A stretch of 64,000 nucleotides of DNA from Cafeteria roenbergensis. Taxonomy: Eukaryota > Sar > Bigyra > Bicosoecida > Cafeteriaceae. The notes beneath the pieces are model-generated. The model made no database searches and was not told where the DNA came from. It saw only the letters and a program-made list of their open reading frames with translations. A program made the position numbers and the translations under genes. Numbering within the stretch: position 1 is the first letter of the stretch; the number at the start of each line of letters is the position of its first letter. This document shows positions 16,511 through 52,898 of the stretch, piece by piece. The stretch covers positions 62,001 through 126,000 of the forward strand of contig VLTN01000047.1 of NCBI GenBank assembly GCA_008330645.1, read 5' to 3'.

Positions 16511-18096
16511 ATGTCCAGTCGTCCGGGCTTTGGTTGGGTCCTGCTTGCCCAGGGGCTCTCGTCCGCGGGCGAGGTGTTCGGACAGCGATTGCAGCGCCGC
16601 TTCCACGAGGGCAGCCAGATTCGTGCCCTCACAACCACAGTGCTATTTTCGTCGCTCCAAGCTTTCGTGGTGTTAGCTGTATGCGAGCTGAGCCTTCCGC
16701 GCTCTGTGACAGGAGGCCAAGGCTCGCTGTGGATGTGGTGAGCCAAGCCAGCCTTCAACCGTGCCTAGCCAGGAAAGGCTGAGCGTCGTGGATGCGCCTT
16801 CATGCTCCCCGTGCGTGTAGTATGCGGTTCGTGTTTGCATCGCAGGGGCGCTGTCGCTGAGCACCCAGCACTGCTGATCAACGCTGTGAACAACACCATT
16901 TACTGGGTCGCTCTTTTGTTTGTGCTCCGGGAGCCGCTCGGTGTCGTGCTCGTGGTGCTGGCGTTCCTCCTTGCCGGATTTTTGACAGCTCCACTGGAGT
17001 CATTGGTTGGCATCGACGGGGACAAGGGCGCCGACGCGCTGGTGAGTGCCCTGTGCGCCGCCTCTGCCGCCCCTTGTTCGCTCGCCTCGCGCCGACCGCT
17101 GTCGCCCAGCGGCCTCCGCCTGTCCTTTGTTGTGCGGCGCAGGCTGGCCTGCTTGCCGTCGCAGGAGCAGCCCTTTGTCTGTCACCGGTGCCTGCGTGGT
17201 TTGGCGGGCTCGACGAGCGGGTGTTGCAGCTGCTTCGGATCAGGCCCCGGCCGACACCGGATGCGGCCAGTGGCAACCCTCGGCTGAGCGACGAGGAATC
17301 TGGCCTCTTGGTTGAGCCTCCACGGGCAGGGCCGGGCGCCGAGGCTCCCGCGGGGCGCGACGGCGAGGAGGTGGCTCTGGTGCCCTCCTCGTCCGACGAC
17401 GAGGACGGGGACGTGGCTCCAAGGTCCGTCATTGCACCCGGGTCGGCCGTCGTCCACGCCTCTCCCCCGGGCGGTGCTGGCGCTGCCGAAGGCCCGGAAG
17501 GGCGCGGCTCGGCCTCCGCGCTTCCGGTCGAGCTGAGCACTCCTGCGTGGGCCATCGCGCTGGCCTGGTTCGTGCTCGCGGGCACTGCCGCGATCGGCAT
17601 CGTCTGCACGACTGTGTTCGAGCACTGGTACGGGCTGACGTCGTTTGGATACGCGGCGGTCGACCAGGTGCTGCTGCCCTTCACCACGCTGCCGGTGACG
17701 TTGCTGGCGGTCAAGCTCAGCTGGCTGGCGGACCTGCTGGGCGAGCCAGCCGAGGGCAGGGACGCGACCTGCCGAGCCAGCCTCGCCCGCAGCTGGGCCG
17801 AGGCCGACTTGCTCACGCTCGTGCCGTTCCGAGCGACCATGTTCGGAAGGGAGTTCCTGTTCTTCTGGCTGGTCACAGCATTCAAGGACCTGACCATTAC
17901 ATACCTCGAGATGACCATCGTGCGGGTGGTCATGTGCTGGGTTGCCTCGCTCGTCGTGTGCACCTGGCTCAGGCAGTGGTCGGGTATTTCGGCCTCTGAG
18001 GCGTCGGATTCGCTTCGCCCAACGACTCTGACGATGCGTGTCGTCGGGACCATCGTGCTGGTGCTATCGTATTTGCGTTTGCAAGGCGCCATCTAA
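16511..18096 (+). CDS. Multi-pass membrane protein, unrecognised family
   Basis: Exons 16511-16737, 16846-17041 and 17143-18096 join in phase 2 then phase 0 (introns 108 and 101 bp), giving 458 aa. I count about eight hydrophobic segments: one in GFGWVLLAQGL, one in LTTTVLFSSLQAFVVLAVCE, two in NTIYWVALLFVL to VLAFLLAGFLTAP, one short (AGLLAVAGAALCLSP), then AIALAWFVLAGTAAIGIV, VLLPFTTLPVTLLAVKL and a C-terminal pair. An acidic, Ser-rich cytosolic-type loop (SSSDDEDGD) separates the two halves. The two-halves layout recalls drug/metabolite-type or nucleotide-sugar-type carriers, but I find no diagnostic motif. The start MSSRPGFGW is the last in-frame Met before the first helix; a Met at 16406 is possible. 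Confidence 0.65.
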
Positions 18097-18183
18097 AGAC
18101 GGGCGCGCGCAACCAAATATTGGCCCACGTCATCAGGCCGCTTTCCGAGTTTTGCTTGGGCTGCCCCGCGCACACTGCGAACG

Positions 18184-19365
18184 ATGGCAGCGGAAGCCAC
18201 TCCGCCCAGAGTGCCCGTCACTATCATTACCGGTAAGCTCGAGGCTGCGCCGCCTGCGCCGCCGTGGCGCGCTTTTGCTGGGCATGCTGGGTGACTATTC
18301 CCCGCCGTGTTCGCCCCGGCCTTGTTCGTCGCCAACAGGCTTCCTCGGCGCCGGCAAGACCACACTGCTGAACTACATTTTGACAGCTGACCACGGCAAG
18401 CGCATCTGCGTGATCGAAAACGAGTTCGGGGAGGACATTGGCGTCGAGGCGCTGGTCGCCAAGGACGGCGCGGGCGGCAGCGTTGTGGAGGACTTCTTCG
18501 AGCTCTCGAACGGTTGCCTGTGCTGCACGGTGCGCGACGACCTTGTGGAGACTCTCGAGCGTGTGCTGCAGCGAAGGGACCGCTATGACTACATCATTGT
18601 GGAGACCACGGGGATGGCCAACCCAGGGCCTGTTGCCACCGCGTTCTGGCAGGACGACGCTCTCGAGTCGGCCATGCGGCTGGACGGCATTGTGACCGTG
18701 GCTGACTGCAAGCTGCTCGCGGGCCAGCTCGACCGCGTTCGGGTGGACGGGGGGGTCAACGAGGCCCAGCGACAGATCGCTCACGCCGACGTCGTCATTC
18801 TCAACAAGACCGACCTGGTGTCTCCAGCTGGTCGGGACGCAGTGCGGGCTCGCGTGGCCTCCATCAACCCCACGTGCGTCGCCATCGAGGCAGAGCGCGC
18901 CGTGGTGAGCCTGGACCGGCTGCTCGACTTGGAGGCGTTCAGCGCGTCTCGCCTCCAAGACCAGCTGCTGCGGGGGCCAACGCCTGCGGCTCAGTTGGCA
19001 GAGCCCGCATCCTCGCCGCCTTGCTCCGCCCGCGACCACGGCCACGATCACCACGACCACAGTGCCCACTGTGGGTGTGGCGTCGCTGCCAGGAACGAGC
19101 ACGGTCGCTCGGGCGCCGACGAGGTGATGACGGTGGTGGTCGAAGTTGCCGGCGCCCTGGACGAGCGGCTGCTGACCAAGTTCATTGGATCCGTCGTGTG
19201 GGAGGACGAGGGCGCGCCTGACAGGGACCGGAGCATGCTCACCGTCGGCAGCCAGGCGCCAGTTCTGCCAGCATCCGGCTCGAGCGGAGCGGCACCGCGG
19301 GCCGGGCCCCTGGCGGCACCGGAGGCATCGGGCTCGGGAGGAGCCGGCGACAATGCCGAAACCGC

Positions 19366-19396
<31 letters not shown>

Positions 19397-19762
19397 GCCA
19401 ACGACGATGACGACGACGACGACGACCCGCCCCTGCTTGCGGAGCCTACGGAGGCGGATGCTGCAGCTGCTGCTGCGGGCACTGCGGCAGCAGGCACAGC
19501 AGCGGCCGCGGCCCGCACGCGCTGCCGCGAGGATGCCATGGACATTCTGCGCATCAAGGGCGTTGTAGCAGTCGCCGACCCAGGCACAGGCTCGGCTCAT
19601 CGGTGCAAGCATGTGCTGCAGGGGGTTGAGGACGTGTTTGAAGTCAGGGAAACTTCCGAGCCGTGGGGCAGCTCGGAGCAGTTGAGCAAGGTTCTGTTTA
19701 TCGGCATGAACCTGAACAAGGACCGGCTTGCCGAGGGGCTGCGACAGTGTGTGGCGGTCTGA
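18184..19762 (+). CDS. CobW/ZNG1-family GTP-dependent metallochaperone
   Basis: Exon 1, 18184-18232, joins exon 2, 18339-19762, in phase 1 across a GTAAGC...CAG intron of 106 bp, giving 490 aa. The junction lies inside the Walker A loop, which is intact after splicing (GFLGAGKT, residues 17-24). The family metal motif GCLCC has Cys76, Cys78 and Cys79. Switch and guanine motifs ENEFGE, TTGMANPGP and NKTD are present. A His-rich loop (DHGHDHHDHSAHCGCG, around residue 250) should bind Zn or another divalent metal. An Ala run and an Asp run (GCC and GAC codons) precede the C-terminal CobW_C domain with KVLFIGMNL. The family hands zinc to client enzymes. The start is 88 bp downstream of the previous gene. 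Confidence 0.92.
19371..19428 (+). repeat. GCC then GAC trinucleotide runs in the CobW gene
   Basis: Nearly uninterrupted GCC/GCT codons followed by GAC/GAT codons encode an Ala run and an Asp run between the GTPase and CobW_C domains. Length polymorphism is likely. Confidence 0.8.
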
Positions 19763-19899
19763 TCGACCCTTGCAACGCAACCTGCGCAGGTGCGTGTGTG
19801 CCGGCGTTGCGGCGGCAAATGCAAGTGACCTCGCGTTGCGCTGAGACTGGCAGCGGAGCCGCAGGAATGTGGCCTGCGACAACGCCGCAATGTGTGCGT

Positions 19900-22470
19900 A
19901 TGGCCGCGCTCGGCACCACGAGCACGAGATCCCCAGCTAGAACCCGTCGCGGCGGGGCTGCCGAGGACTCCGTGCCGGGACCAAATTCAAGCAAGAGCCG
20001 GTCGGCAGCGCAAACAGGCAGCCACGCTGCCAGATCACTCGCCTTGGACTTGGGCGACGAACCGCCGGGCGCTTCTCCTTCTGCAGACGCCCTTTCGGAC
20101 CGGAAGGGCCCTCGTTGGGCATCGGCGCCCGCTTGCAACCTGCGGCCGAAGGCTTCCGGCATGGCCGTCTCGGACGAGGCGGATGACTTGGTCGAGCTGC
20201 TGCAGTCCTTCCCTCTGCCCCCGTCCGGAGGAGAGACCAAGCCTCGGTGGCACGCTGAGCGAATCCGAGCCAGGGCGCTCGCGAGGGACCCGGCCGCGTC
20301 CGTCCTGGCGTTGCTGCAGGACCCGCTCGGCCATGAGAGCGTGGCCAAGTTTCGAGAGCTCGGAGCGCTTTTGTGCCCAGCCAAGCTTTCCGCAGTGGTT
20401 GCCGCCGAGCTGGAGGCGCTTGCCACAGCGGATGCAGCTGCGAACAAGCCCCGGGGCGCCATGGGCAAGGTGACTGGCGCTGTGGGGTGGCTCGGCGCTC
20501 GGTTTTCGGCAGCCGTGGGCACCACGTTGAGCCCAGCGCCGGCAAGAGACTCAGGCGATGCCAGCCAAGGGACGCAATCCACTCCACCAGCAGATGCTGC
20601 GGGGCGGCGGATCTCAGGTGTGCTTCGCGAGCAGGGCGATGCTGCGGACACAGCGCTGGACCTGGGAGAGGCGCTCAGCCCGTGCGGCACAATCGGCGCC
20701 AGCTACTCCGGCACGGGATGCGGGGGAGCACAAGGCGCGTCGTGGCACTTGCGGGCGTCTCGGCATTGCATTGTGCTGGCCCCGCGTGCGGCCGTGACGG
20801 ACGCTGTCAAGCTCGCCGTGCTCCCGACACCGCCGGCAGCAGCTACCGAGGCCAGCCGCTCCGCCTCTGAGCGGCGCCTGTCCTCCAGCGCACCCGGCGA
20901 CTCCGCAACGACGGATGCCGTTTCCAGGAGAAGGGCTACAGTTGACACGCCTGGGGCTGCGGCAGCGAGCCGGCAGCCGTCTGCGGCCGGCGCTGCAGCT
21001 CGAGGCCGCGCCGCTGCCGGGGACGAGGCTGCAGCTGAGCCTGGCGCGCCGGTTGCCCCTCCTCGTGGTGCCGACCTGGGGGACGCGGAGGTGCTGTTCC
21101 ACCCTCGGCTTGCCAGCGAGGGCCTTCACGACGGGAGCGGGGAGGACGAGCCGCTGTGGGGCAGGTGTTTGCCGCCTTGCCCGCTGTTCCAGGAGCTCAC
21201 TCACAGCGTCACTGTGTCCAACCATGGGCGAGGACGGGTGCAGCTGACCGCTATGGCGCTAGCGCTGGACCCACCTTCCGCTGGGACCATCGAGGCCTCA
21301 CCCCGCTCGTTCAGCCTGCGCGCCGGGGAGTCAGCCCCCGTTCGCGTGCGGGTGTGCCTGACCCGCCCGGGTGTGGTCGCGACAGGGCTGGTCATTGTTG
21401 AGGACGCTGCCGCTGCAGCAGCAGGCGCGCCCACCTCTCGCGGCGGCGGCCGCACCAACCGCGTGCCCATTCTGTTCCGGGCGCGATCAGCCGCTCCGCT
21501 GTTCGGCAGCCCGCTCGCCGCGGTCCCTCTGGAGGCCAGTGTCGTGGGGGGGCTGACCTTTCGAGTGCCTCGGCCTTTGGCGGCGTGCTGGGCCCGGCTG
21601 GCTGGCGGCGCGCCCTCGCTGCTCGCCCAGCGATTCCTCTTCCGCCTCTCGGCACTGCCAGAAGACGTTCGGGCGGCGATAGCCGTTCTGTCCGCGGGGT
21701 CTTCCACGCTGCTGGCAGGCTCGCACTCTGACCCTGCTGTCACGGGTGCAGAGGCCCTCGGCCCGCGGGAGCCCGCCTTGGCCGACGCCCAGGGAGACAG
21801 CACGCTGACCTTGCTCCCGGATGGCGAAGCGTGGACAGCGCCCCCCCTTGTGGAGTGCTCTCCGCCGCACGCCGCTGCGACTGCCCTGAAGATGTACCTT
21901 CGTGAGATGCCTACCCGGCTGCTCGACTCGGTGCCGCTGCCAATCATTGCGGCGGCCTCGGCGCCTTGGCCAAGCGACCTGATGGACGCCGCTGCGGGGG
22001 GCACCGCAGCGGACGCCGCCCGGGCCACACCCGCTAGCAGCGAGGAGGTGGCCGCCGCGCACGCAGCGCTCCTGCGCGCGCTCCCGCTGAGCCGAGCGAG
22101 GATCCTTGGCTGGCTCGCGGTTGCCCTGGCCCAGGTCGCCGCCAACCGCGGTCTCAATGATATGTCGCCCCAGGCCCTTGGAATCGTGGTGGGGCCGAAC
22201 CTGAGGAGCCCGCCCGACCAGGGGGACGACGGTGCTCCCCCTGGCGACTCGTCGGCGATGGTTGCCGCGAGCCGAGCCCTCGCCGAAGCCAGGATGTGCG
22301 GAGCGCTGATGGAGAGCATGATCTCCCATGTGCTGGCGGCCGGGGAGCTGCAGCCGGCCCCGGACGGCCTGCCAGGGGTGGCAGATGCCCCAGGCGTGTC
22401 GGGCGTCGGCTTCAGAGCGTGCCCTGGTTGGCTAGCGCCGGCTGTCACCCCGACGCCAGCAACAGACTGA
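19900..22470 (+). CDS. ASH-like plus RhoGAP domain protein
   Basis: A single exon of 856 aa from the Met at 19900; a Met at 20161 (MAVSDEADDL) is an alternative start. The first ~400 residues are Ala/Ser-rich with no family I recognise. Around 21190-21500 is an immunoglobulin-like MSP/ASH-type segment (LTHSVTVSNHGRGRVQLTAM ... PVRVRVCLTRPG). It is followed by a RhoGAP domain: arginine-finger segment FLFRLSALPEDV, helix ALKMYLREMPTRLL, and LAVALAQVAANRGLNDMSPQ followed by ALGIVVGPNL. RhoGAPs stimulate GTP hydrolysis by Rho-family GTPases. ASH followed by RhoGAP is the C-terminal architecture of OCRL/INPP5B, but no inositol 5-phosphatase domain is present here. The gene converges on the phosphatase gene 148 bp downstream. 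Confidence 0.75.
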   Translation: MAALGTTSTRSPARTRRGGAAEDSVPGPNSSKSRSAAQTGSHAARSLALDLGDEPPGASPSADALSDRKGPRWASAPACNLRPKASGMAVSDEADDLVELLQSFPLPPSGGETKPRWHAERIRARALARDPAASVLALLQDPLGHESVAKFRELGALLCPAKLSAVVAAELEALATADAAANKPRGAMGKVTGAVGWLGARFSAAVGTTLSPAPARDSGDASQGTQSTPPADAAGRRISGVLREQGDAADTALDLGEALSPCGTIGASYSGTGCGGAQGASWHLRASRHCIVLAPRAAVTDAVKLAVLPTPPAAATEASRSASERRLSSSAPGDSATTDAVSRRRATVDTPGAAAASRQPSAAGAAARGRAAAGDEAAAEPGAPVAPPRGADLGDAEVLFHPRLASEGLHDGSGEDEPLWGRCLPPCPLFQELTHSVTVSNHGRGRVQLTAMALALDPPSAGTIEASPRSFSLRAGESAPVRVRVCLTRPGVVATGLVIVEDAAAAAAGAPTSRGGGRTNRVPILFRARSAAPLFGSPLAAVPLEASVVGGLTFRVPRPLAACWARLAGGAPSLLAQRFLFRLSALPEDVRAAIAVLSAGSSTLLAGSHSDPAVTGAEALGPREPALADAQGDSTLTLLPDGEAWTAPPLVECSPPHAAATALKMYLREMPTRLLDSVPLPIIAAASAPWPSDLMDAAAGGTAADAARATPASSEEVAAAHAALLRALPLSRARILGWLAVALAQVAANRGLNDMSPQALGIVVGPNLRSPPDQGDDGAPPGDSSAMVAASRALAEARMCGALMESMISHVLAAGELQPAPDGLPGVADAPGVSGVGFRACPGWLAPAVTPTPATD

Positions 22471-22618: not shown

Positions 22619-24032
22619 CTACACTTCCCCACTCGCCTCGCTCGAGGCGTCGCGCCTGCCGCACTCGGCGGCGGATGCGATGGGGTTCACGCCTGGCACG
22701 GGCGAGGCCTGGGATGGTCGTGGCTCGGGCGTGCAGCACCACAAGAGCGGCGCGTCCAGCTCCTGCTGCTCTTCCCCCGTCAGCGAGCGGACCAGGCACA
22801 CCCTGCCGCACCTGCTGGCTTCCCACGCGAACCCGTCGGCGATAGCCACGATCGAGGGGGTATAGGCCGCCAGGGTAGCCTGTCCAGGCCTTGCGGCGGC
22901 CAGCGGCCTCGGGGCCCTTCGCCGTCTGCTCGAGCTGCTGCCGGCGCCTGCGGCAGTCCCTCCGCCCCCTGCCAGATCCGGCGCTGCAGCATCAGCCGGC
23001 AGGCAGACCTCCCCGACCTCAGATTCGTCGGAGCTGTCGTCTGCGTCCGGCTTTGCCCTGGCCCGCTGCCTGGGCTGCATCAGCCGGCAGTGGACGAAGG
23101 CTGCCACGGCCGCCCCGACGACAAAGCCCGCCAGGATGTCCGTCCCGTTGTGGTAGTCGTCAGAGAACCGAGTAAGCCCGACAACGATGGGCCAGGTGAT
23201 GGCTAGGAGCTGAAGAAACGGCACCAGCGACGGCGAGCCTTGGCTCGGCACGTGCAGCGCCTGCTGCAGGTACAGCGCTGTAACGACCCCGCTGAACGCC
23301 GAGAAGCTTGCGTGCCCCGATGGGAACGAATGCCGACCGTCGATCAGCTTGGGGGAGTCCAGGGAAGCGCCACACACCTCAACGGCGCGCAGCGGCGTCT
23401 GCTCGAGGACGCTGGAGTTGGCGGCCCCGCGCACCGCGTACGCCCTGACGTGCGCCTCCAGCGCTGCTGCCACTTTGATCGGGTCCGGCTGGCACCGCGC
23501 CAGCCAATCCGGCCGCAGTCGGCCCGCGACGTGCTTGCCGATATCGGACACAACGCCAGTGACCACGGCTCCCAGCAGCAGCCACGCGATGCGCGACACC
23601 AAGAACTTGATCGGGCGCCCGGCAGGGGGGAGAATGACATCGCACACGAGCACCGCAAGGACGGGAATGATGATGGAGACGATGAGAAGCTCCGCCGTCG
23701 TCACGGACTCGGGCTTGAGCGGGTAGGAAATCGCCGGGTCATCGATGAAGAACTCCTGCACAGGGCGGTGACACAAACGCGTGCCACCCCAACAGCCCCA
23801 TCGGCACGGGCGACCGAAGCTGCACGCGGGCGCCAAGCGCAGCCGCAGCCGTGTGGCTCCCGCGTGGGCACCACCTTGGGGGCAGCTGCAACATCGCCGC
23901 CTCCCAGTCGCTGCACCACTCTGGAGGACTCACGCGCTCCAGAGTCGGAATCGCCCCAAGCGTCAGCGCGCCGAAGACTGCAAGCAGGGCCGCGATCACC
24001 ACGGCGTCCGTCGGCCCGCAGCTCGCGGGCAT
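22619..24032 (-). CDS. PAP2-family lipid phosphate phosphatase
   Basis: Exon 1, 24032-23934 (33 codons), joins exon 2, 23755-22619, across a 178-bp GTGAGT...CAG intron in phase 0, giving 411 aa. All three catalytic motifs are present: KHVAGRLRP near residue 106, SFPSGHAS near 175 and TRFSDDYHNGTD near 228 (the usual Ser of motif 3 is Thr). About six membrane helices surround them, with the first in exon 1 (VVIAALLAVFGALTLGAI). This family dephosphorylates phosphatidate, lysophosphatidate or related lipids at ER or plasma membranes. The C-terminal tail of ~140 residues is cytosolic-type with acidic and Ser/Arg runs. The gene is divergent from FHIT (123 bp). Confidence 0.92.
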
Positions 24033-24155
24033 CGCCGCGCGGCTGGGCGGCAGTGCGCAGCCGCTTGCTGGCCGACGATCGTCGGCGCTGTCGCGGCAGG
24101 CTCGCTGCAGAGCCGGCCCGGGCTGCTGGGAACGCTCCCACAGCGCCACGCGGCC

Positions 24156-25349
24156 ATGGCGGCGGGAGCCGGCGTGCGAACGGCATGCAGGGAGGTCGCG
24201 CGTGTGGTCGCCGACCGGTGCCCGACGGGGATTCTCTCCGTGCGGTGGCGGGCGGGCCTGGCATCCCGCCACAGCGACCTTGGGGCTGCCTCCCTGCTCG
24301 CAAGGGCGGGAATTCGGCCCGTGCCGTGCCCCGACGACGGGATCGAGACTGTTTTGCGCGACTCAGATGCGCTTGTTCACTCGGTGGACGAGTGCAGCAA
24401 GGGGGCGGCCGTGACCTTGCTGTTGCACGGGAGTGAGAGCGCTGACGCAGAGCTGCTCGGCAGCACGCCGGGCCTCTTGATTGGCCTCGAGGGCGCCTGC
24501 CCGACAGTTCCCACCGCCGAAACGTGCGTTGTGGGAACCGGGGAGCCCGCATCCCCTGGCAGCGCTGCAGACGTTTTGTTGGAGGCAGCGGTGCGAGCTG
24601 TTGTGCCGTGGCTGGAGGGAGACAAGCCGGGCATCCTGGCGAGGGAAGGCGCACGACTTGCAGCCAGTGGAGCGCCGGTAGACACTCCGGCTGCTGCAGC
24701 ATCCCCAAGGTCGACCGTTGATGGCGCTGCCCCGGAGGGGGGGAAGCTCGGCTTCGGGCCGGTGTCGCTGATGTCAGCGCAAGTGTTCCTGCGGGGGCAG
24801 CTGTGTCGGGCCTTCGTGAATATCAAGCCTGTGCTCCCTGGGCATGTGCTTGTTGCCCCTGCACGGAGCGTGGCTCGAGTTTCATCGCTCACACCCGCCG
24901 AGTTGGCAGACCTGTTTGAAACGGCCAGGGCGGCCGGAGCCCTGGTGCAAGCGGCGCACAGGGCCTCAGCCCTGCAGCTCTCTGTGCAAGATGGCCCCGC
25001 ATCCGGCCAGTCGGTGCCACACGTGCACGTGCACGTGATTCCGCGCCGCCCCGGAGACCTAGAGGCCGGCGACGACGTCTATTCGCTGCTTGAGGCATCC
25101 AGCGGCGTCATCGCCGACGCAGTGCGCGCTGGCTCGCGAGGAGACGCTGCCGGACTGGACGCGGCATGGGGGGGGCTGTCAGGCCTGGGGAGGGCTGGCA
25201 CAGCCACAGCCGCAGTGGACGAAGCAGCCACGCAGCACACGCAGCTGGACGACGGCGACCCGAGCACAGGCCCCCGCCTGCGCACCGCGTCGGAGATGTC
25301 CGAGGAGGCGGCATGGTACTTGTCGCTTGCCAGCAGCCGTTCTCGTTGA
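24156..25349 (+). CDS. FHIT-like bis(5'-nucleosyl)-triphosphatase with an unrecognised N-terminal domain
   Basis: A single exon of 397 aa. The C-terminal half is a FHIT-class HIT domain: RAFVNIKPVLPGHVLVAP, then SVQDGPASGQS and the histidine triad in VPHVHVHVIPR, closed by GDLEAGDDVYSLL. FHIT hydrolases cleave Ap3A-type dinucleotides and have tumour-suppressor and stress roles in animals. The ~200 residues before it (from MAAGAGVRTACREVARVV) are not nitrilase, the partner fused to FHIT in flies and worms, and match nothing I recognise. Usual FHIT length is about 150 aa, so this gene is strongly extended. The tail after the HIT domain contains acidic and Thr-rich segments. Confidence 0.88.
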   Translation: MAAGAGVRTACREVARVVADRCPTGILSVRWRAGLASRHSDLGAASLLARAGIRPVPCPDDGIETVLRDSDALVHSVDECSKGAAVTLLLHGSESADAELLGSTPGLLIGLEGACPTVPTAETCVVGTGEPASPGSAADVLLEAAVRAVVPWLEGDKPGILAREGARLAASGAPVDTPAAAASPRSTVDGAAPEGGKLGFGPVSLMSAQVFLRGQLCRAFVNIKPVLPGHVLVAPARSVARVSSLTPAELADLFETARAAGALVQAAHRASALQLSVQDGPASGQSVPHVHVHVIPRRPGDLEAGDDVYSLLEASSGVIADAVRAGSRGDAAGLDAAWGGLSGLGRAGTATAAVDEAATQHTQLDDGDPSTGPRLRTASEMSEEAAWYLSLASSRSR

Positions 25350-30250: not shown

Positions 30251-31340
30251 GGGACAGGGGTGGCTGCGAGGCTGGCAATGTGCGAGCGGGCGCCCGGGTC
30301 CGTCGGCCAGAGGCGTCGTCGCTGCGGCAGAGTCAAGGAACTCACTTGCCAGTCTCCAGTTTAGCTCCTGGCGCGAGAAACACCACGCACACGATTGATC
30401 GGGCACCAGCGAGCGCGATGCGCGCCTCGTCGCGGCAGCGGGGCGCAACTAGTCGTGCCCGGCCGAGACGCCGATGCCAGCCGGTCAATCTCATCCCGCT
30501 GCTCCACGACAAACTCGATGCCCCACGGCCTGGGCACAGCGCTTGGCACGCGTTCGCTGCGCGGGAGCCACAGGCACTGCCAACGGGGGCCGGCGGGGCG
30601 GGCGGGCTGCGAAGGGAACCACCTCGGCCAGGCAGTGCGCTGGCAACGAGCACTGCAATGCGGTTGGCGGTGGTCACGCAGCGGCTGCTCGAGCCGTGCC
30701 CGCGCACGAGGCACGCGCCAGACGTCCCCGCGCAAGAAAAGACGAAACGCAAGGCTTGTCCGCGTGCCGGTTGTCACCATGGAGCTGGGAACAAGACGTC
30801 CGAACGGCAGAGGCGCCGTCCGCAGCAGCAACCCACGGCATGACGTGCAGGGCACACACTCCCTCGCTGGCAGGGACGCAGCCACCAGTGAGCCGAGGCG
30901 CGCCGGCCCCGCCGCCCCGCGTTGCACCGCTGCCGGCATGCTTAGCGCTACAGCCAGGCATCTTGCCGTGAGCGGCCGCAGTCAGCCGAAGGCTGCGCTG
31001 GGACCTGCCAGCTGGTGGCCCGTGGCGCGGGCGCGTGGGTCACAAGCTGCCGCCGGATTGTCAGCCGCACGAGCTCGCCCTTGCCAGCCCGCCTCGGCGG
31101 CAGGGCGCGCGCTTCGTTCGCGGCTGGACGCCCTTGCCTATCCCCCGTGGCGATGCCACGTCGCCAGCGGCTTGCGACACCGGGACACGCGTCGGAATGC
31201 TCGATCCTACGGCGGCCACTGGCTGCGCGCCTGCGGGATCATCTGCCGGCGCCTGATCCCCCGCTGACGCCCCCCCCCCACCCGCCCGCATGGTTCCTCG
31301 ACCGCAGGCTCCTTTCCCCGCACGCCCAGGACCAGGAAGC
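30251..31340. other. 1.1-kb divergent intergenic region, possibly an unresolved small gene
   Basis: This separates the EF-hand start (minus) from the G6PD-HK start (plus) and is far longer than the other head-to-head spacers. On the minus strand, open frames at 30342-30752 and 30361-30939 overlap. One ends just past a GTGAGT donor-like site near 30345, which could be a 5' UTR intron of the EF-hand gene or an exon of an unrecognised gene. I could not assemble a consistent product. Confidence 0.4.
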
Positions 31341-34300
31341 ATGGCAGCGGGACGGAACCCGTTCCAGGGCGGCGACGTTATGTCCAGCAAGGACAGCTTC
31401 TCCATTGTCGTGTTCGGAGCAAGCGGCGACCTGGCAAAGAAGAAGACCTACCCGGCAATCTTCGAGCTCTTCTCCCAGGGCCTCCTCCCCTCCCGCATGC
31501 GCATCATGGGGTATGCGCGGTCGAGCAAGACGGACGAGGACTTCCGGGAGAGCCTGCGCGTTTACATCAAGTCGTCGGACTCGGCACGCGTGGAGGCGTT
31601 CCTTGCCATGTGCTACTACAGGAACGGCAGCGGCTACGACGACGAGGAGGGCTTTGCCACCGCCATTGCTGAGATGCACGAGCTGGAGCAGGCTGACGGC
31701 CCAGGTGAGTCTGCCGGCAGCCCACCGGGACCTTCCAGCGCTGCCAATGCCCGCCCTTGGCGCGGCCTCCCTGGCGGCTGGCGTTCGCCCTCATGCGGCG
31801 TCTGCGAGCCTGTCCCAAGCCACCCACCCCACCCCACTCGCTCCCCACTCCTCCTTGCTGCCTTGGTCGAGCCGCCCGACCCCTAGCTGCCGCAGTTGCC
31901 GCCAATCGCGTGTTCTACCTGGCTCTGCCGCCCACCGTGTTCAGCAAGGCTGGCGCCGTGATCAAGGCCAAGGGCATGTCCGAGTCGGGCTGGAACCGTG
32001 TGGTCGTCGAGAAGCCTTTCGGGAAGGACTCTGCGAGCAGCGCGAAGCTCTCAGCCACCCTCGCCAAGCACTTCACCGAGGACCAGATCTACCGCATCGA
32101 TCACTACCTGGGAAAGGAGATGGTGCAGAACCTCATGGTCATGCGCTTCGGCAACGCCGTGTTCGAGCCAATCTGGAACAGGCACTACGTGAAAATGGTG
32201 ACCATCACGTTCAAGGAGCCGTTCGGCATCGCCAGCCGCGCCGGCTACTTCGACCAGTACGGAATCATCCGCGACATCATGCAGAACCACCTCACCCAGG
32301 TCATGTCCATCGTGGCAATGGAGCCGCCTGTCAGCCTGTCGGCAGAGGACGTGCGCGACGAGAAGGTCAAGGTGCTGCGCTCCGTGGTCCCCGTGCGCGA
32401 GGAGGATACCGTCACGGGGCAGTATCGCGGTGACTCTGACCACAACGCGTACCTTGAGGAGGAAGGCGTACCGGAAGGCTCCACCACCCCAACCTTCGCC
32501 ACGACTGTGGTGTTCATCCAGAACCAGCGCTGGAACGGCGTCCCCTTCATTCTCAAGTGCGGCAAGGGCCTGAACGAGCGCAAGGCCGAGGTGCGCGTCC
32601 AGTTCCGCGACGCGCCCCACTTCCTGTACGCTGGCGGCGCGCGCGGGCAGGTGCACGCTGTGAAGCAGACGCCGCTGGACCAGGGCACCGCCGCGCGCTC
32701 GCGGGCCCCGTCCGGCGCCAGCGCGGGTGGCGTCGCTGCCGCCGCTGCCGGTTCAGGCGCGGTCGCGGGTGCGGGCGCGTGCAGTGTGGCCTCAACTGGT
32801 GGCGCCCACTCCGTCGACGATGACGGCCGCGGCTTCGATGGCGGCTGGCACTGCGCCGCTGCTTCCGGGCCGTCCAACGAGCTGGTGATCCGCATCCAGC
32901 CAGAGGCGGCTGTCTACCTCAAGGTCATGTCCAAGATGCCCGGGCTGGACAACGTGATCAGCTCGTCGGAGCTCAACCTGTCCTTCGACGACCGTTTCCC
33001 TCTGCGCAAGAGCCCCGAGGCCTACGCCCGGCTCATCCTCGACGTCATGCGCGGCGACCAGAGCCAGTTTGTGCGCAGCGACGAGCTCGCCGCGGCTTGG
33101 GCAATTTTCACGCCCCTGCTCCACCGGCTCGAGGGCGGCCCGGGGTACGAGGCGCTCGGGCCAAAGGCCCCCGTGCTGTACCGGTTCGGCTCCCGCGGCC
33201 CGGTCGAGGCCGACTTGCTCCTCAACGGCTATGGTTTCACCTACGACCGCTCCTACGCGCGCTCGTGGCGCCGGCAGATGGAGGGGCCCACCATGCGCGA
33301 GTTTCGCAGCGCCTTCAAGCTGCCCACGAGCGAGCTCGAGGCCCTTGTTAGCACCTTCCAGAGGGAGATGATCAAGGGGCTCGCGGGCGGGTCGCAAAAG
33401 TCCACCATCGCACAGATCTACACTCACCTGGACGACAGCCTCACCGGCAGGGAGACCGGCGACTTTTGGGGTCTCGACATTGGCGGCACCAACCTGCGCC
33501 TGGTGCGCTACCGAGTGGAGCCCGGTGCCTCCCCCGTGCGCACGCCGCTCCGCGGCCCTGGCTGCGACGAGGAGTGGGTCTTCAAGGCAGCCATCCCCCC
33601 TGAGATCAAGAAGGCGCCCGGAGCCGAGCTCTTTGCTTGGATGGCCGAGTGCTGCCAGACTGCCGGCGTGAAGAGCGCCGACTCCATCGGCTTCTGCTTC
33701 TCCTTCCCGTACCTCCAGACCGCCCTCAATCGTGGCTTCCTCCTCTACTGGACCAAGGAGTTCTCCAACTCGGGTGTTGGCCTGGACGAGCTCCCGGCCG
33801 GCGCCGACGAAGACGCCGTCGCCGCCCGGGAGGTGTCTGGCTCCCTCGAGAACGCCCTCTCCAAGCTGGGCATCGGAGCAAGCGTGAGCGCCATCATCAA
33901 CGACACCGTGGGCACTCTCATGTCCGGCCTCAGCACGGACCGAGACACCAAGGTTGGCCTCATCCTCGGCACTGGCACCAACGCCTGCTACGTGGAGCGC
34001 AAGGCTGCCATCCCCAAGCTCCCCGCTGGCGTCCCGGCAGAGGGCGATGCTGTGGTGTGCATGGAGTGGGGAGCCTTTGGCTCCTCGTCGGACGTGTCCA
34101 AGGTGCCCACCGGCGCCGAGCGGCTCCTCCCGCTGACGGAGTCTGACGCCGCCATGCTGCTCGAGACCGATAAGGCCGGTCGCCAGGTGTTCGAGAAGCT
34201 CATCAGCGGCAAGTACCTGGGCGCGATTGCCCGCACCGCGCTCGTGCAGCTCTTCAACGCTGGCGAGATCTTCTCCGAGTGCCGCGAAGCGGCGGAGAAG

Positions 34301-34918
34301 AGCGCCTTGATCGCTCCTGTCGGAAAGGCAGCGACGGCGTCTGCCGCGGCTGCGGCTTCCGCTGACTGCCCAGCCCCTGCCGAGTGTGCAAAGGGCGACG
34401 AGGAGGACTCGCACGGCCCGCTCTCCACCCGCATGCTCTTCGCCTGCGTGAAGGACGAGTCGAGCGCGTCCATGGCGACCCGCGATGTGCTCCGCAGCCT
34501 CGGCATCCCCAGCGCCAGCGAAGACGACATCTACCTCGTGCAGGAGGTGTGCACCACCGTTGCCCAGCGCGCAGCGCGACTTGTGGGCATGGCGCTGGCC
34601 GCAGTGCTGCGCCACACTGGCCACCACGACGGCGTGGCAGGCCGGCCCTGCAAGACGCCCGTCGTGGCCATCGACGGCAGCCTGTTCAGCAAGAACCACG
34701 ACTTCTGGGTCTCGGCGGGGCCCGAAGGCTTCAAGAGCTGGGTGCTGGAGGCTCTGTACGAGCTGGGAGTGCGCGCTGAGCTCTCCCCGATCGAGAACGC
34801 GTCCTTCGAGGGCGCTGCGGTTGTGGCTGCCATCGCCGCGCGCCGCATCGCAGAAGGCGCGACGAAGCAGAGTGTGGCGGAAGCTGCGGCCGAGTGTGTG
34901 CGCCAGCGAAGCGCCTGA
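31341..34918 (+). CDS. Glucose-6-phosphate dehydrogenase-hexokinase fusion
   Basis: Exon 1, 31341-31704, joins exon 2, 31896-34918, across a 191-bp GTGAGT...CAG intron in phase 1; the product is 1128 aa. Residues ~1-570 are a complete G6PD: NADP loop GASGDLAKKKTYPAIF, catalytic RIDHYLGKE (residues 188-196), and the C-terminal YRFGSRGPVEADLL. It contains a ~70-residue Ala/Gly insert near residue 440. Residues ~590-1128 are a complete hexokinase: FWGLDIGGTNLRLVRY, sugar-binding IGFCFSFPYLQ and YWTKEF, catalytic INDTVGTLMSG, LGTGTNACY, MEWGAFG and VAIDGSLFSKN. Both domains lie in one uninterrupted 3-kb exon across the junction, so the fusion is not a gene-model artefact. HK makes glucose-6-phosphate, the substrate of G6PD, so the protein could channel glucose into the oxidative pentose-phosphate pathway. 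No targeting signal is seen. Confidence 0.95.
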
Positions 34919-35171
34919 GTGACATTGCTGCAGGCTCCCGCCTGCGATTGCCGTTGGTTCGAACATGACCCGCCTGCTCCCGGCCCCGAGTTTGGTTCGA
35001 CACCACGGAGCTCAAAGTGTGACGCGCTGGCAAACGCCCAGGCACGAATCGCAGCCGGTCGGCCTTGAGGCGGACTTGCACACAAAGCATCGCAAAAGCA
35101 CATCGTGTCGTGTCCGGTGGTGGGCTCCCCCCCACCACCATCACCACCACTTGCACCCGCAAGTCACACTC

Positions 35172-38100
35172 CTACTGCATGGGCACGAGCGAGTCAGCAA
35201 GCTGCATCGACAGCTTGCCATCCTCGAACCGAACCATGACTTCCTTCTGTCCCGCTGACTCGGTCACTTCGCCCTCCACACTGCCGGTGGCACCGTCGGA
35301 AGCCCGAATCACGCGCGCGCCCTGCTTGGGCTCCTGCGGGACGAGGGAGGACGATGGCACAGTCGTTGTGTGGCCCGATGAGAGCGCGACAGCGACGGCG
35401 TGTGGCCCCGAAGCACCGGTGACCACTCCCAGCTGGCCGGACGATGGGCCGCTGGTCACCACCACGCACGCTCCGCGACGAGCAAGGACCGGGAGCGAGT
35501 CCGCGTGGTCGCCCCCCCCGTTTCCGCCACCGAAATGCCCGGGGCCATCGTCGTCCGCGCCCGGGCCGGGCGTCTCTGCGTTCCAAACTCCCGCGGACGC
35601 GCCGTTGCTGTGGCCCGAGTAGGCCGGCGTCGCAGAGCCGCCGTACGCCGGGGTGGAGCCGCCAGCGCCGGCACCGTGGTACCCCGGAGTCGTCCCGCCG
35701 CCGTAAGCCGGCGTGGCCCCGCCGCCGTATGCCGGCGTGGCCCCGCCGCCGTATGCCGGCGTGGCCCCGCCGCCGTATGCCGGCGTGGCCCCGCCCAAAG
35801 CTGGGGTGCGGCCTGACATGGCCGGGGTCGCGCCCGAGTACGCAGCTGTGCGCATCGCGTCGTGCGCGCCTCCGTAGTTGGCAGTGGCGTACTTGGCCGT
35901 TCCGTACTGCGCAGTCCTGTACTGCGCGGTGCCGTGAGAGCTGGACTGCCTCGCTCGTGCCATCGCGCGGAGCTCCTCGATGCTCTTTCCGGCAGTCATG
36001 CCGCGGGAACTCATCGACGCGGACGACCCACCTCCCGGCATTGCCTCCTCTCGGCGCACCATTGACTTGGGAACGGTGACCTTCTGCTGGCCGGCATGCA
36101 GCTCAACAAGGACGTTCTCGCCCTGCAGCTGGCGAACAATGCCAAGCTTGCTCTTGTGCGTGGAGCGAAGGATTCGGACTGTGGCGTTCAGGAGCCGATC
36201 CGGGTCGGCCACGCCCCTCCCGCGGCCGCGCCCGGCAAACCGACCGCCCGGCCCGCCGCTGCGGGCCACCATCATGCCGCCCGTGCCACGACCAGCGTCC
36301 ATTCCACCCATTGCAGCGGGGGCGACTGCGCCAGCGCCAGAGATGCCGAGGGCAGCAGCTGCTGCGGCGTTGCCTCGCGCCTTGCCTCCTGCAAGCACCA
36401 CCGAGCGCGAGCGCACGACGAAGATCCCGCTGTTCTTCGTCTCCCTCGGGGAGTGCAGGAACAGGTAGCCATTGGACACATGCTTGACAACACCGTCCCG
36501 GCCGCGCCACGGCTCCTCGGTGATGCGCACCACGTCGCCCACCCTGACAGGCCGCATGGTCGAGTCCATCGCGGTGCCAGCGGCGGCGCGAACGCCGCGC
36601 CTGTGGCGCACGGCACTCGGCGCGTAGCGCTCCACAGTGTTTGACGTGTTCAAGATCGCCAGGTCGGTGGCCCCAACGGCAATGATGCAGCCGGCCTCGG
36701 GCTGCTGCGCGGCTGCCGAGGTGATGTCCACCAAGTCGTACAGCCTGAAGCCCTGCAGATCTTCGACTGAGGTCACGATCTCTCGCGTTGTGCGGAGGTC
36801 CCGGACAAGGACCTCAACGCGGCGACCCCCAGCGTCCAGGGTGAGAACTGCAGAGTGGTCACCCGAGTCGCCGACCCGGGTGATCACCACCACGCCCGTC
36901 TGGCCCTGGTGCATGCCGCCGACGACCTTGACGCGCGAGCCGATGTCAAAAGTCTTCACCAGGTCCGCCACAGGCACTGGAACGTCATCCGTAAAGTCCA
37001 GCGCCGCGGCCATCTCCTTTTCGATCTCGATCAAGACTGTGCCTTCCGCCTCGTCGATGGACTTGACGCGGCCGGAGAGGCCGTGGAGGTCGCCCCGCAC
37101 GACCACCACGTTGTCCCCATGGACGATCTTGGCGTCGGCAGCGGCGGCGGAGCGCTGGCCCGACCCGAGCGACATGCTGAGCGACGCCTGCCACTCCTTG
37201 TCCTTGGCCCGCATGGCTTCCGCGGCGGCCGCAGGGTCGTCTTCAGCGCCATCCAAGTCCACCGCGCGACGGGGCCGGAACCACCGCAGCTCCTCCATCG
37301 TCGGCGCGGCCCCTTCCGTGGTGACGTGCGACAGCGGGCATTCGCGAAGCAAAAACCCTTCGTGGTAGAGGCTGGAGGCAAAGAGGTCGGCCTGCGCGCC
37401 GAATCGGGTGAGCTTCGTCTCGATGCGGGGCTCGCGGCCCGCGGCCTTGATTGCGGCACGCACCTCTGCCGCGTCGAAGAGGCGCTGAGGCGGCCTAGCC
37501 CCGCGAGACGACAGCGCGCGGCGCTGCTCGGCCGACATGCCAAGGCGCTGGAAGTTGATGCGAGGAACTGCCTTGATCAGCACGCGCGCCCCTCCGTCCA
37601 TCACGTCCTCCACCCGGGCCAGGTCGCCCTTGTACTCGCCCTTGGTCATGCGCACCCAGCCGCCCTTCTGCAGACGCGAGATTTTGGACTTGATCGCAAT
37701 TGCCGAGGGGATGTCTGCCGGCTGCACCATGGAGATGGACCCGGCCCGCCAAGCGAAAACGTCCGGAATCCCGGACACGGCTGCAGCAACGTACGCCTCT
37801 CGGTGGGCCTCGACGAAGATGATGCCCTTGGAGGTAGTGAAGGCCGAGGTGATGGCCAGAATCTTCCCCTCGCTCGCGGAGGCGATGAATTTGTTGCACA
37901 GCGCAACGATGATCTCGCGCTCGCGGTTCTCTCGCACGCGAATCATGAACAGGCGGGGGTCCTTGGGCGTGGGAAGGTCCGTCTGCCGAAGCACGCCAGA
38001 GGCGCTGCCGGTGCCCTCGCCGAGTACCACGTCGTCGTTCCCCTGCTCCAAGTACCGCGTCTGCTTGGCGCGGGCTTGCAGGTCCCTCACGATCTCCTGG

Positions 38101-38380
38101 TCCGTCGGCTTGCTGGCCTTTCGGCGCCGCGTTTCCTCGGCCTCGCGGCGGATGGCCTCGATGCGCTGCTGTTGCGTCCGGCGCAGCTGCTCTGTGGTGC
38201 GGGGACGGTCCTTTCCTGCGTCATCGTCGTCTTCTTCGGCTGCGTCTTCGAAAAAGTGATCCACGTCCGTCCGGCGCTTGCGGTGGCGCTTGCGACGGGG
38301 CTTGGCGCCGGAGGCAGGTTCGTCATCGTCGTTGTCGTCGTCGTCGTCATCGTCGTCGTCGTCGTCATCGTCGTCCTCGT

Positions 38381-38411
<31 letters not shown>

Positions 38412-38687
38412 ACCATCCCCAGGGCCCTCGTTTGCAGCACTGCTCGAGCCGCTGCCTCCGCGGGACGCCGCAGCAATCGCTCGCCCGCGCTTTGAGCCAG
38501 GCACACGCCCGCTGTCGCTGTCGTCGTCGCTGACACCCAGGCCTGCGCCGGTGTGGCCACCGTCATCATCATCGTGGTCCCGTGGACGCTTGCGCGCGGC
38601 AGAACTGGTCGGAACGCGAGGGCTCTCGTCCTCGCTGTCCTCGGCCTTCGCGCCAAAATCGGCGTCCTCGTCAGCAAACGTGCTCAT
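35172..38687 (-). CDS. SPT5: Transcription elongation factor SPT5 (DSIF large subunit)
   Basis: A single exon of 1171 aa. The order is typical: acidic N terminus with a long Asp run, basic patch RRKRHRKRR, NGN domain (DPRLFMIRVRENREREII, about residues 245-330), first KOW (GGWVRMTKGEYKGDLARVED), several further KOW modules (for example GDVVRITEEPWRGRDGVVKH), and a C-terminal repeat region of TPAYGGGA units. With SPT4 it forms DSIF, which regulates pausing and processivity of RNA polymerase II; CTR Thr-Pro units are P-TEFb/Bur1-type phosphorylation sites. It ends with two more KOW-like segments and SMQLADSLVPMQ. It converges on G6PD-HK (253 bp). Confidence 0.94.
35697..35804 (-). repeat. 24-bp minisatellite encoding SPT5 CTR octapeptides
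   Basis: Four near-perfect 24-bp units encode TPAYGGGA repeats; looser TPA/TPG copies flank them at about 35620-35860. The DNA units are almost identical, so recent expansion is likely. Confidence 0.85.
38331..38411 (-). repeat. GAC/GAT trinucleotide run encoding poly-Asp in SPT5
   Basis: An imperfect (GTC/ATC)n run on the plus strand reads as ~27 acidic codons, nearly all Asp, in the SPT5 N-terminal acidic region. Confidence 0.85.
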
Positions 38688-39026
38688 TGCAGCCTCTCTG
38701 CAAGCAGGTCACGCGATCGCAGCCGCAGAAGACGGTGGAGCCACGCGCCCGCAATATCAGTGTGCCCGCCCGGGGTGGCGCGCCGCAGGGCCAATAGGGT
38801 GCGCGGCGCCGCCCCGGGCGAAGCCAGAACAGATCGGCCTATATTGAGCGGATTCAAATATGCGCTTGCTCTGCCTGCTGATTGAGTTGCCGCTGCTCGA
38901 CGGTGTGCTTGAGTTGGCTTTACCCCGCGCCCGGGAACGGCGGCGCGTGGGCGATGCGACCGGCGCTAGTGTTTGTCTGCGCGGCGGAGCACGCTGGCGC
39001 ACGCGCGATGCATTGGCAGTCGTTTC
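38688..39026. other. Intergenic 339 bp, SPT5 promoter side
   Basis: Lies between the SPT5 start and the stop of the TPR/CNB gene, both on the minus strand. It has a local AT-rich patch at 38838-38866 with a TATA-like TCAATATAGG about 155 bp upstream of the SPT5 ATG. No gene is seen. Confidence 0.4.
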
Positions 39027-51026: not shown

Positions 51027-52863
51027 ATGGCTCTCCGCTTTCGGGACCTCGAGCCCAGCCTGCTGCCCGAGACGCTGAGGGCGATTGACGCATTCGAGTT
51101 TGACCGCATGACGCCGGTCCAGAATGCTGCGATCCCGCTCTTCCTGCAGAACAAGGACGTGTGTGTGGAGGTGAGCTGGGCGCGTGCTGGCCATTCGCGG
51201 GTGCCACGGCGTGGCGCAGCGGGAAAATCGCTCTGTTGTTGCTGCGGCTTCCTCGTGCGCGGGCCAGTGGCGTGACGCACCCCACTGTGCTGCCATTGCG
51301 CGCCCACGACTGCCTGTCTGTTCGCAGGCCGTCACTGGCAGCGGAAAGACCCTGGCATTCCTCGTGCCGGTGCTGGAGCGCCTGGCCCGCCTGACGAGGC
51401 GCCTCACACCGACGCAAGTCGGCGCGGTCATCGTCTCGCCCACGCGCGAGCTGGCCAGGCAGACGCACGGCGTGCTGATGCGCCTCCTTGCAGGCTTCAG
51501 TTCCAGCGAGGACAGCGGCGTCCCGGCCGGGCTCGCGCCGCTGCTGCTGCTCGGCGGGCGGCCCGTGGAGGACGACCTCAAGGGGGCCTCCACCGACGGG
51601 TGCAACATCATCGTGGCTACACCGGGACGCCTGATCGACCTGATGCGCCGCACAGAGTCTGCGACCCGCAGCGCAAGCGCGGAGGCGGCTGCCTCGCTCC
51701 CAGTGTGGACTGCGCTGGAGGTGCTCGTGCTGGACGAGGCGGACAGGCTGCTCGGCATGGGGTTCAAGGAGGCTCTGGACGAGATTCTGAGCCGCCTGCC
51801 CAAGCAGCGCCGCACGGGCCTCTTCTCTGCCACGCAGACCCGCGAGGTGAAGGCGCTCGCCCGCGCCGGCATGCGTAACCCCGTGACGCTGCGCGTCCGC
51901 GTGCAGAACGAGTCCACTTCGGCCGCTCTCGGCGGGGCGCAGCGAATCCCAGCGCGGCTGGAGAACACCTACATCACCTGCCGAGAGGACGACAAGCCTC
52001 TGCAGCTCGTGCAGTTCCTCCGCGACTGCGAGGCCGAGAGCACGGCCCGCATGACTGGCGAGGGGTCGACGCCCGAGTCCGACGGCGTCAAGGTGGTCGT
52101 CTTCTTCCTCACCTGCGCGGCAGTAGACTACTTTGCCACAGTGCTGCCGCCGCTCTTGCGCCACGGCCCGGAGGAGGTGGTGGCCATGCTGGACAGGCCC
52201 GGGGACGACGCGCGCCACCAGGCGGCCCGCGAGCTGCTTCCCCGGTCCGGGACCGGTCGCCTCGCAGCGCCATCCAAGGCCGCGGCGCGCGCAGCGGCGG
52301 CAGCCGCCACAGCCGCCGAAGGGCCACCCGGGCTCGCATGGAAGTCCCTCGCGGGTCTGAAGGCGCCCTCCACTGCTGCAGAGGCCATCGCCATGGCGTC
52401 GCCCGACTCCCTCCCGCTCTTCGCCCTGCACGGTCGGATGGAGCCAAAGCGCCGCAACGCTGCGCTTGAAGGCTTCCAGAAGGCTCGCGCCGGCGTCCTG
52501 CTGTGCACCGACGTGGCAGCCCGCGGCATTGACGTTCCCGACGTTGACTGGATCGTGCAGTTCGACCCGCCGTCCGACCCCTCCTTCTTCGTCCACCGCA
52601 TCGGCCGCACAGCCCGCGCCGGCCGCTCGGGGGCCGCCCTTGTGCTGCTTCTCCCTGCCGAGGCAGGCTACGTGGAGCTGCTGCGGGACGTGCACCGCGT
52701 GCCCATGGCGCGGCGTCGTAACGTGAGCGGGCTCATTCGAGCGGAGCCGGAGGCCCCCCACACCGAAGACGCGGACGACGCAGACGACGACGACGATGAC
52801 GGCGTGACCACCAAGCGCAAAGCCGAAGCCAAGTCTGTGGCGGCTGCTGGCGCGGCAAAATCT

Positions 52864-52898
<35 letters not shown>

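Follow-up and report, generated by a model that had tools for sequence, protein, structure and literature searches.

Fusion proteins in which G6PD is joined to the enzyme of a neighboring step are known from several lineages. G6PD–6PGL fusions are found in Plasmodium, Giardia, Trichomonas, and, as H6PD, in metazoans, and a G6PD–6PGD fusion has been reported in a diatom and hence in a stramenopile, although its legitimacy was left open (Stover 2011, PMC3148214). A sequence-only reading of the locus described below had listed 6PGL as the partner in known G6PD fusions, which is correct for 6PGL and incomplete with regard to metazoan H6PD–6PGL and diatom G6PD–6PGD; in the available text of a 2024 review on G6PD structure, 6PGL is the only fused partner named. 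Among the matches listed in the present analysis, G6PD and 6PGD-type domains are combined in at least 10 rows (P0063, P0099, P0101, P0106, P0107, P0109, P0111, P0116, P0118, and P0121, Nitzschia and Epithemia included), and the diatom fusion thus looks wider than one species. G6PD presumably occupies the N-terminus of that fusion. Vertebrate HK1-3 are tandem proteins, in which the catalytic hexokinase lies behind an extra N-terminal hexokinase domain. Furthermore, the neighboring sugar enzymes TPI and GAPDH are fused in stramenopiles as a mitochondrial protein (PMC6198282).

Here, we describe a protein of Cafeteria roenbergensis in which G6PD is joined to hexokinase. As in HK1-3, a catalytic hexokinase is placed behind an extra N-terminal domain, which in this case is G6PD. 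As in the G6PD–6PGL fusions, G6PD is joined to a neighboring step, but the partner is the enzyme of the step before, and the 6PGL gene of Cafeteria lies elsewhere; the diatom fusion differs in its partner, 6PGD, and the TPI–GAPDH fusion in both of its enzymes. Among the matches listed, titles and abstracts of the open-access PMC literature hold no description of a G6PD–hexokinase fusion, in line with the sequence-only reading, which knew of none. Likewise, none appears in the available parts of a paper on stramenopile glycolysis (PMC6198282), and the words hexokinase and G6PD do not occur in the text of a MAST-3 metagenome paper. The fusion is apparently old and undescribed.

The window, i.e., the whole stretch of 64,000 nucleotides that was analyzed, is part of a contig of 297,012 bases, and the assembly searched comprises 167 contigs and 36,303,456 bases. 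The assembly of strain BVI, reported with 170 contigs, 36,327,047 bp, and 83.2% of BUSCOs, is one of four PacBio-based assemblies, and RNA-seq was used for gene prediction (PMC6972860).

Gene Structure and Domain Composition

Splicing of positions 31341-31704 to 31896-34918 yields 1128 aa without internal stops, with G6PD at the N-terminus and hexokinase at the C-terminus in one frame. The three-exon reading (Table 1) is letter-identical to the deposited C. roenbergensis protein FNF29_06279 (P0002; 1149 aa). Of the gene limits previously proposed (31341..34918), the end is retained, whereas the deposited model begins upstream, at 30938, with an extra first exon, and its ATG at 31341 is internal. 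Other features noted from the sequence were recovered, namely the fusion in one polypeptide, with four Pfam domains in a frame identical to the deposited record; the catalytic motifs RIDHYLGKE, WTKEF, and INDTVGT (residues 188, 740, and 789 of the 1128-aa reading); a junction inside a single uninterrupted exon of about 3 kb; and a linker of about 20 residues, which is near the 16 residues separating the last G6PD_C match from the first Hexokinase_1 match.

Table 1. Features of the G6PD–hexokinase gene (positions in the window).
Feature	Position	Strand	Basis
Coding exon 1 of the deposited model (MLSATARHLA)	30938..30967	+	Three-exon translation identical to P0002 (FNF29_06279)
Coding exon 2: N-terminus and beginning of the coenzyme-binding domain of G6PD, with GASGDLAKKK motif and ATG 31341	31308..31704	+	Splice translation
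G6PD_N match, in exon 2	31407-31688	+	Pfam profile
Intron, GT...AG, 191 bp	31705..31895	+	Splice translation
Coding exon 3, 3,023 bp including stop: remaining G6PD, junction, and entire hexokinase in a single frame	31896..34918	+	Open frame 31709-34918
G6PD_C, matched stretches 32135-32629 and 32867-33244 flanking an insert	32135..33244	+	Pfam
Low-complexity insert of 69 residues inside G6PD_C	32666..32872	+	Low model confidence
Junction: G6PD end and short linker ahead of hexokinase	33245..33292	+	Between Pfam matches
Hexokinase_1 (LDIGGTNLRL, WTKEF, INDTVGT)	33293..33928	+	Pfam, motifs
Hexokinase_2 (GTGTNACY, MEWGAFG, FEKLISG, DGSLFSK)	33950..34834	+	Pfam, motifs

All four domains score above the curated Pfam cut-offs (G6PD_N, 194 bits; G6PD_C, 339; Hexokinase_1, 128.8 with a cut-off of 24.3; Hexokinase_2, 152.4 with a cut-off of 24), and the NCBIfam equivalog zwf (TIGR00871) is passed with 537.3 bits (cut-off, 400.6). 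The G6PD half holds both the coenzyme motif GASGDLA and the catalytic motif, and the protein matches G6PDs among PDB sequences, that of human best, followed by hexokinase-2 and hexokinase-1. Neither a 6PGL (Glucosamine_iso) nor a 6PGD domain is detected by Pfam.

The AlphaFold2 model of exon 3 has a mean pLDDT of 84.4, with values below 50 at its residues 246-257, 263-323, and 817-831, the latter two stretches lying in the low-complexity inserts of G6PD and hexokinase, respectively. In a fold search, the G6PD half resembles human G6PD; the best 50 matches are all G6PDs, and the hexokinase half is not among them. The model of the related Hondaea protein (mean pLDDT, 82.9) matches folds of both G6PDs and hexokinases, which suggests that its G6PD domain is folded even if the coenzyme site is gone. 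Neither model shows an interface between the halves.

The window also carries, by Pfam, genes for ECM29 (4934-12628, minus strand), CobW (18032-19759, plus), RhoGAP (19642-22467, plus), HIT (23772-25346, plus), and a DEAD-box SPB4-like helicase (51175-54165, plus), none of which is apparently linked to sugar metabolism. Spt5 (Pfam; 35175-38708, minus) ends in a C-terminal run of ATPAYGGG repeats.

Relatives and Phylogeny of the Two Halves

Proteins in which G6PD_C and Hexokinase_1 occur together, proposed by the sequence-only reading as a check, number at least 42 (34 from a first search and 8 more from a second), drawn from the best 120 of 270 and the best 120 of 209 matches. All four Pfam domains are present in 35 of these; the remaining seven each lack one domain, probably owing to truncation. 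The order noted for Cafeteria, in which the second of two consecutive activities comes first, is found in 42 of the 42 listed fusions. The distance from the GSRGP-like motif at the G6PD C-terminus to the hexokinase DxGG is 93-105 residues in 40 of the 42, the exceptions being P0028 (261 residues, with a long insert) and P0313 (113). The organisms named among them are Cafeteria and the thraustochytrid Hondaea fermentalgiana, whose fusion gene is deposited under the name G6PD; the others are metagenomic, transcriptome, or gene-model entries, and "Hondaea-type" denotes hereafter a grouping by sequence similarity, not taxonomy. P0004, encoded on another contig, is 70% identical to the window protein at 99% coverage. 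Entries labeled as complete ORFs cover both halves in P0009, with a GECG accession that we take to be of the transcriptome type, and in P0046 and P0241 (mmetsp); one mRNA thus appears to span the join in relatives. P0246 (mmetsp), also labeled as a complete ORF, comprises only the G6PD end and hexokinase. P0045, an unfused metagenomic protein of 678 aa, has a G6PD nearest to that of the fused P0014 and a different C-terminal tail. By eye, this tail resembles a PH domain, a call that Pfam does not make.

The G6PD tree was built from the halves of 39 fusions and 30 references, P0008, P0245, and P0246 being too short. The Cafeteria group in this tree consists of 28 fusions and the unfused P0045, and a second group has ten members (P0028, P0033, P0042, and seven Hondaea-type rows); the very long-branched P0313 falls outside. 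The fused G6PDs are not joined in the free tree: at least three label changes are needed, two of them forced by starred branches (P0313 included), and none of 200 bootstrap trees has a single change. P0045, which possibly represents a loss of the hexokinase half, explains part of the extra changes by its position inside the Cafeteria group. Placing the fused G6PDs, with P0313 out and P0045 in, as one clade lowers the log-likelihood by 1.92 units and is not rejected (AU p 0.43). The G6PDs of the diatom G6PD–6PGD fusions group with references from oomycetes and other stramenopiles and are separate from the hexokinase-fused ones.

The hexokinase tree comprises the halves of 39 fusions (P0025, P0027, and P0029 left out) and, from seven animal proteins, 14 halves. 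One branch (100/100) separates the fused from the animal rows, and the former are divided into a Cafeteria group of 26 fusions (99/99) and a second group of 12, including P0313 (100/97), with P0028 in neither. A hexokinase-only search listed almost only vertebrates, so that animals supply all unfused hexokinases of the tree, and closer unfused hexokinases could exist in stramenopiles. Except for P0028 and P0313, the two main groups largely agree between the trees of the halves, and the distances of the halves are correlated (Spearman 0.60, p 0.001, 35 shared rows).

Unequal Divergence of the Two Halves

The stem of the Cafeteria clade measures 0.26 changes per column in G6PD vs. 1.42 in hexokinase, whereas the seven Hondaea-type rows have a G6PD stem of 0.90 and successive hexokinase stems of 0.03-0.29. 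Mean distances to 20 other fusions are 1.31 (G6PD) and 3.08 (hexokinase) for six Cafeteria-clade rows and 3.18 and 2.58 for nine second-group rows; the other fusions among themselves give 1.02 and 1.65.

Coenzyme and substrate sites of G6PD were scored with lists that we take from human G6PD, with P0028 counted in the first group, P0313 scored apart, and P0014 left out because of its N-terminus. The 28 first-group rows retain the consensus almost throughout (coenzyme sites, 206 of 207 cells; substrate sites, 236 of 237). In nine second-group rows, it is retained at 47 of 101 cells of the coenzyme sites and at 69 of 81 of the substrate or catalytic sites; the corresponding counts for P0313 are 6 of 11 and 5 of 9. 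Hondaea-type rows have an eroded coenzyme motif, and Tyr202 is replaced by Phe in seven of the nine second-group rows. Loss at coenzyme sites of the second group is excessive against all conserved sites (p 0.0046); the excess vanishes within the Rossmann domain (p 0.14), suggesting that this entire domain is relaxed. For substrate residues of the Hondaea group, retention was not significantly better than at the remaining conserved positions of G6PD (p 0.13 with all conserved sites as reference, 0.28 inside the domain), and a smaller site set, in the within-domain test, revealed neither coenzyme loss nor substrate retention. The zwf cut-off of 400.6 bits is passed by P0009 (565.6) and P0028 (556.4) and missed by the second-group proteins P0080 (350.3), P0046 (340.0), and P0313 (230.4). 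By eye, a Trp follows the C-terminal Gly-Pro of G6PD in 29 of the 30 rows P0002-P0031 and in P0313 alone among the remaining 12; this position presumably lies near the structural NADP site of human G6PD.

In the hexokinase half, D670, T762, K763, N811, D812, N838, E866, and E909 (P0002 numbering) are kept in all seven Cafeteria-clade rows; we take these to be the sugar-binding Lys, Asn, and Glu, the base Asp, and the DxGGTNxR phosphate motif. In the Cafeteria clade, NASF or SASF replaces the C-terminal DGSG loop, which has a role in nucleotide binding and is present in most other fusions and hexokinases. This loop belongs to 24 of 85 sites that are conserved in other fusions and animal C-terminal halves and not kept in all seven rows. 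Given this strong divergence and the replaced loop, the activity or nucleotide use of this half could differ.

Other Sugar-Metabolism Genes of the Genome

No hexokinase-family locus other than the fusion was found with two Pfam families and zebrafish hexokinase in the assembly, which is presumably that of strain BVI with 83.2% of BUSCOs; 14 prokaryote genomes searched as controls also gave no match, so that the fusion gene itself serves as the sole positive control. No match was obtained in the assembly for Glk or ROK kinases. The G6PD families match the fusion, which is the only canonical G6PD found, and one divergent paralog on contig C14 (L016:1942-4404, minus strand; 821 aa), with a hydrophobic N-terminus, a DHYLAK motif, a zwf score of 96.7 bits, and no 6PGL domain found; its sequence suggests a possible G6PD of the secretory pathway, similar to animal H6PD. 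Separate canonical G6PD and hexokinase loci, which together with an untranscribed fusion would have weakened the sequence-only reading, were not found in the genome. The proposal that the genome has no glucose kinase besides the fusion was rejected, since an ADP-dependent glucokinase with a hydrophobic N-terminus and a C-terminal RDEL is encoded on contig C23 (L017:656-2731, minus strand) and offers a second possible route to glucose 6-phosphate. The fusion protein is devoid of a hydrophobic start, and a secretory-pathway pair of ADP-glucokinase and G6PD-like protein may exist beside the fused pair.

6PGL (contig C24) and 6PGD (contig C3) are encoded by separate genes, and the genome also has genes for PGI and PFK. 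As no other kinase of the hexokinase family was found, the fusion probably serves glycolysis from glucose as well, unless glycolysis is fed by ADP-glucokinase, which appears to reside in the secretory pathway; devotion of the fusion to NADPH alone is therefore unlikely, and the earlier suggestion that it could commit glucose to NADPH production is overstated.

Proposed Function and Alternative Explanations

We regard it as likely, judging from sequence and predicted structure, that the protein is a bifunctional NADP-G6PD/ATP-hexokinase of a single origin, the G6PD half of which was later worn in the Hondaea type. The hexokinase half would make glucose 6-phosphate with ATP, and the adjacent G6PD half would oxidize it to 6-phosphogluconolactone with formation of NADPH. 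Both activities would reside in the cytosol. G6PDs are oligomeric, and the fusion protein probably is as well. The gain would lie in fixed stoichiometry and local supply, not in a tunnel; the sequences and models analyzed here give no sign of channeling. A single fusion event prior to the split of the Cafeteria and Hondaea lines is most likely; in the Hondaea-type group, much of the coenzyme site of the G6PD half would then have been lost, with hexokinase remaining intact. The Hondaea-type protein is thus probably a hexokinase with a G6PD-derived accessory domain, possibly a worn enzyme with retained binding of glucose 6-phosphate and comparable in this respect to the extra domain of HK1-3. 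A more tentative extension, which we would not favor at present, is that this half is a pseudo-dehydrogenase that binds glucose 6-phosphate but not NADP and acts as a product sensor for the attached hexokinase. In the thraustochytrid Schizochytrium, G6PD activity rose on overexpression of its own G6PD gene (PMC9866257); should the overexpressed gene be the fusion, its worn half would still be active.

An artefact of assembly or gene prediction has a negligible chance of explaining the join. The high G+C content gives long spurious frames (e.g., 739 codons at 32792-35011, minus strand), but the deposited model is matched exactly, P0004 repeats the architecture, and the fusions come from several sources; independent relatives with the same join rule out both chance and the assembly error that the sequence-only reading had considered. 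Two origins, in the Cafeteria group and in the Hondaea group, are an unlikely account of the trees: the label changes of the G6PD tree and the animal-only set of unfused hexokinases would agree with it, whereas the order and the nearly identical junction length are shared by both groups, a single clade is not rejected, and long branches could separate the groups. It is quite improbable that the Cafeteria-clade hexokinase half is a regulatory or altered-specificity domain on a working G6PD instead of an ordinary hexokinase; its long stem and lost conserved sites, the DGSG loop among them, point in that direction, but the phosphate motif, Thr-Lys, Asn-Asp, Asn, and both Glu are kept throughout the clade, and no other hexokinase-family gene was found. 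Release of separate enzymes from one precursor, by proteolysis or by an internal start of transcription or translation, is very unlikely: Met is present at the junction of Cafeteria (M583) and, by eye, of P0003, P0004, P0009, and P0020, yet in only 5 of the 42 listed rows, while junction length is conserved and apparent transcript entries span both halves.

Perspective

Thraustochytrids have been engineered for NADPH via G6PD (Schizochytrium; PMC9866257), and since the Hondaea gene is named G6PD though its coenzyme site looks largely lost, a choice led by names could select the wrong gene. If the sensor reading is true, the regulatory-half design of vertebrate hexokinases would have been reached from a different enzyme. 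Furthermore, the monophyly of Bigyra has been "shaken" (PMC11412368) and the group is paraphyletic in one tree (PMC5795050), and the shared rare join offers a character for its disputed unity. Cafeteria is a model marine grazer, the fusion is the only hexokinase-family gene found in it, and the protein would be a natural single-chain enzyme leading from glucose to the NADPH-making step.
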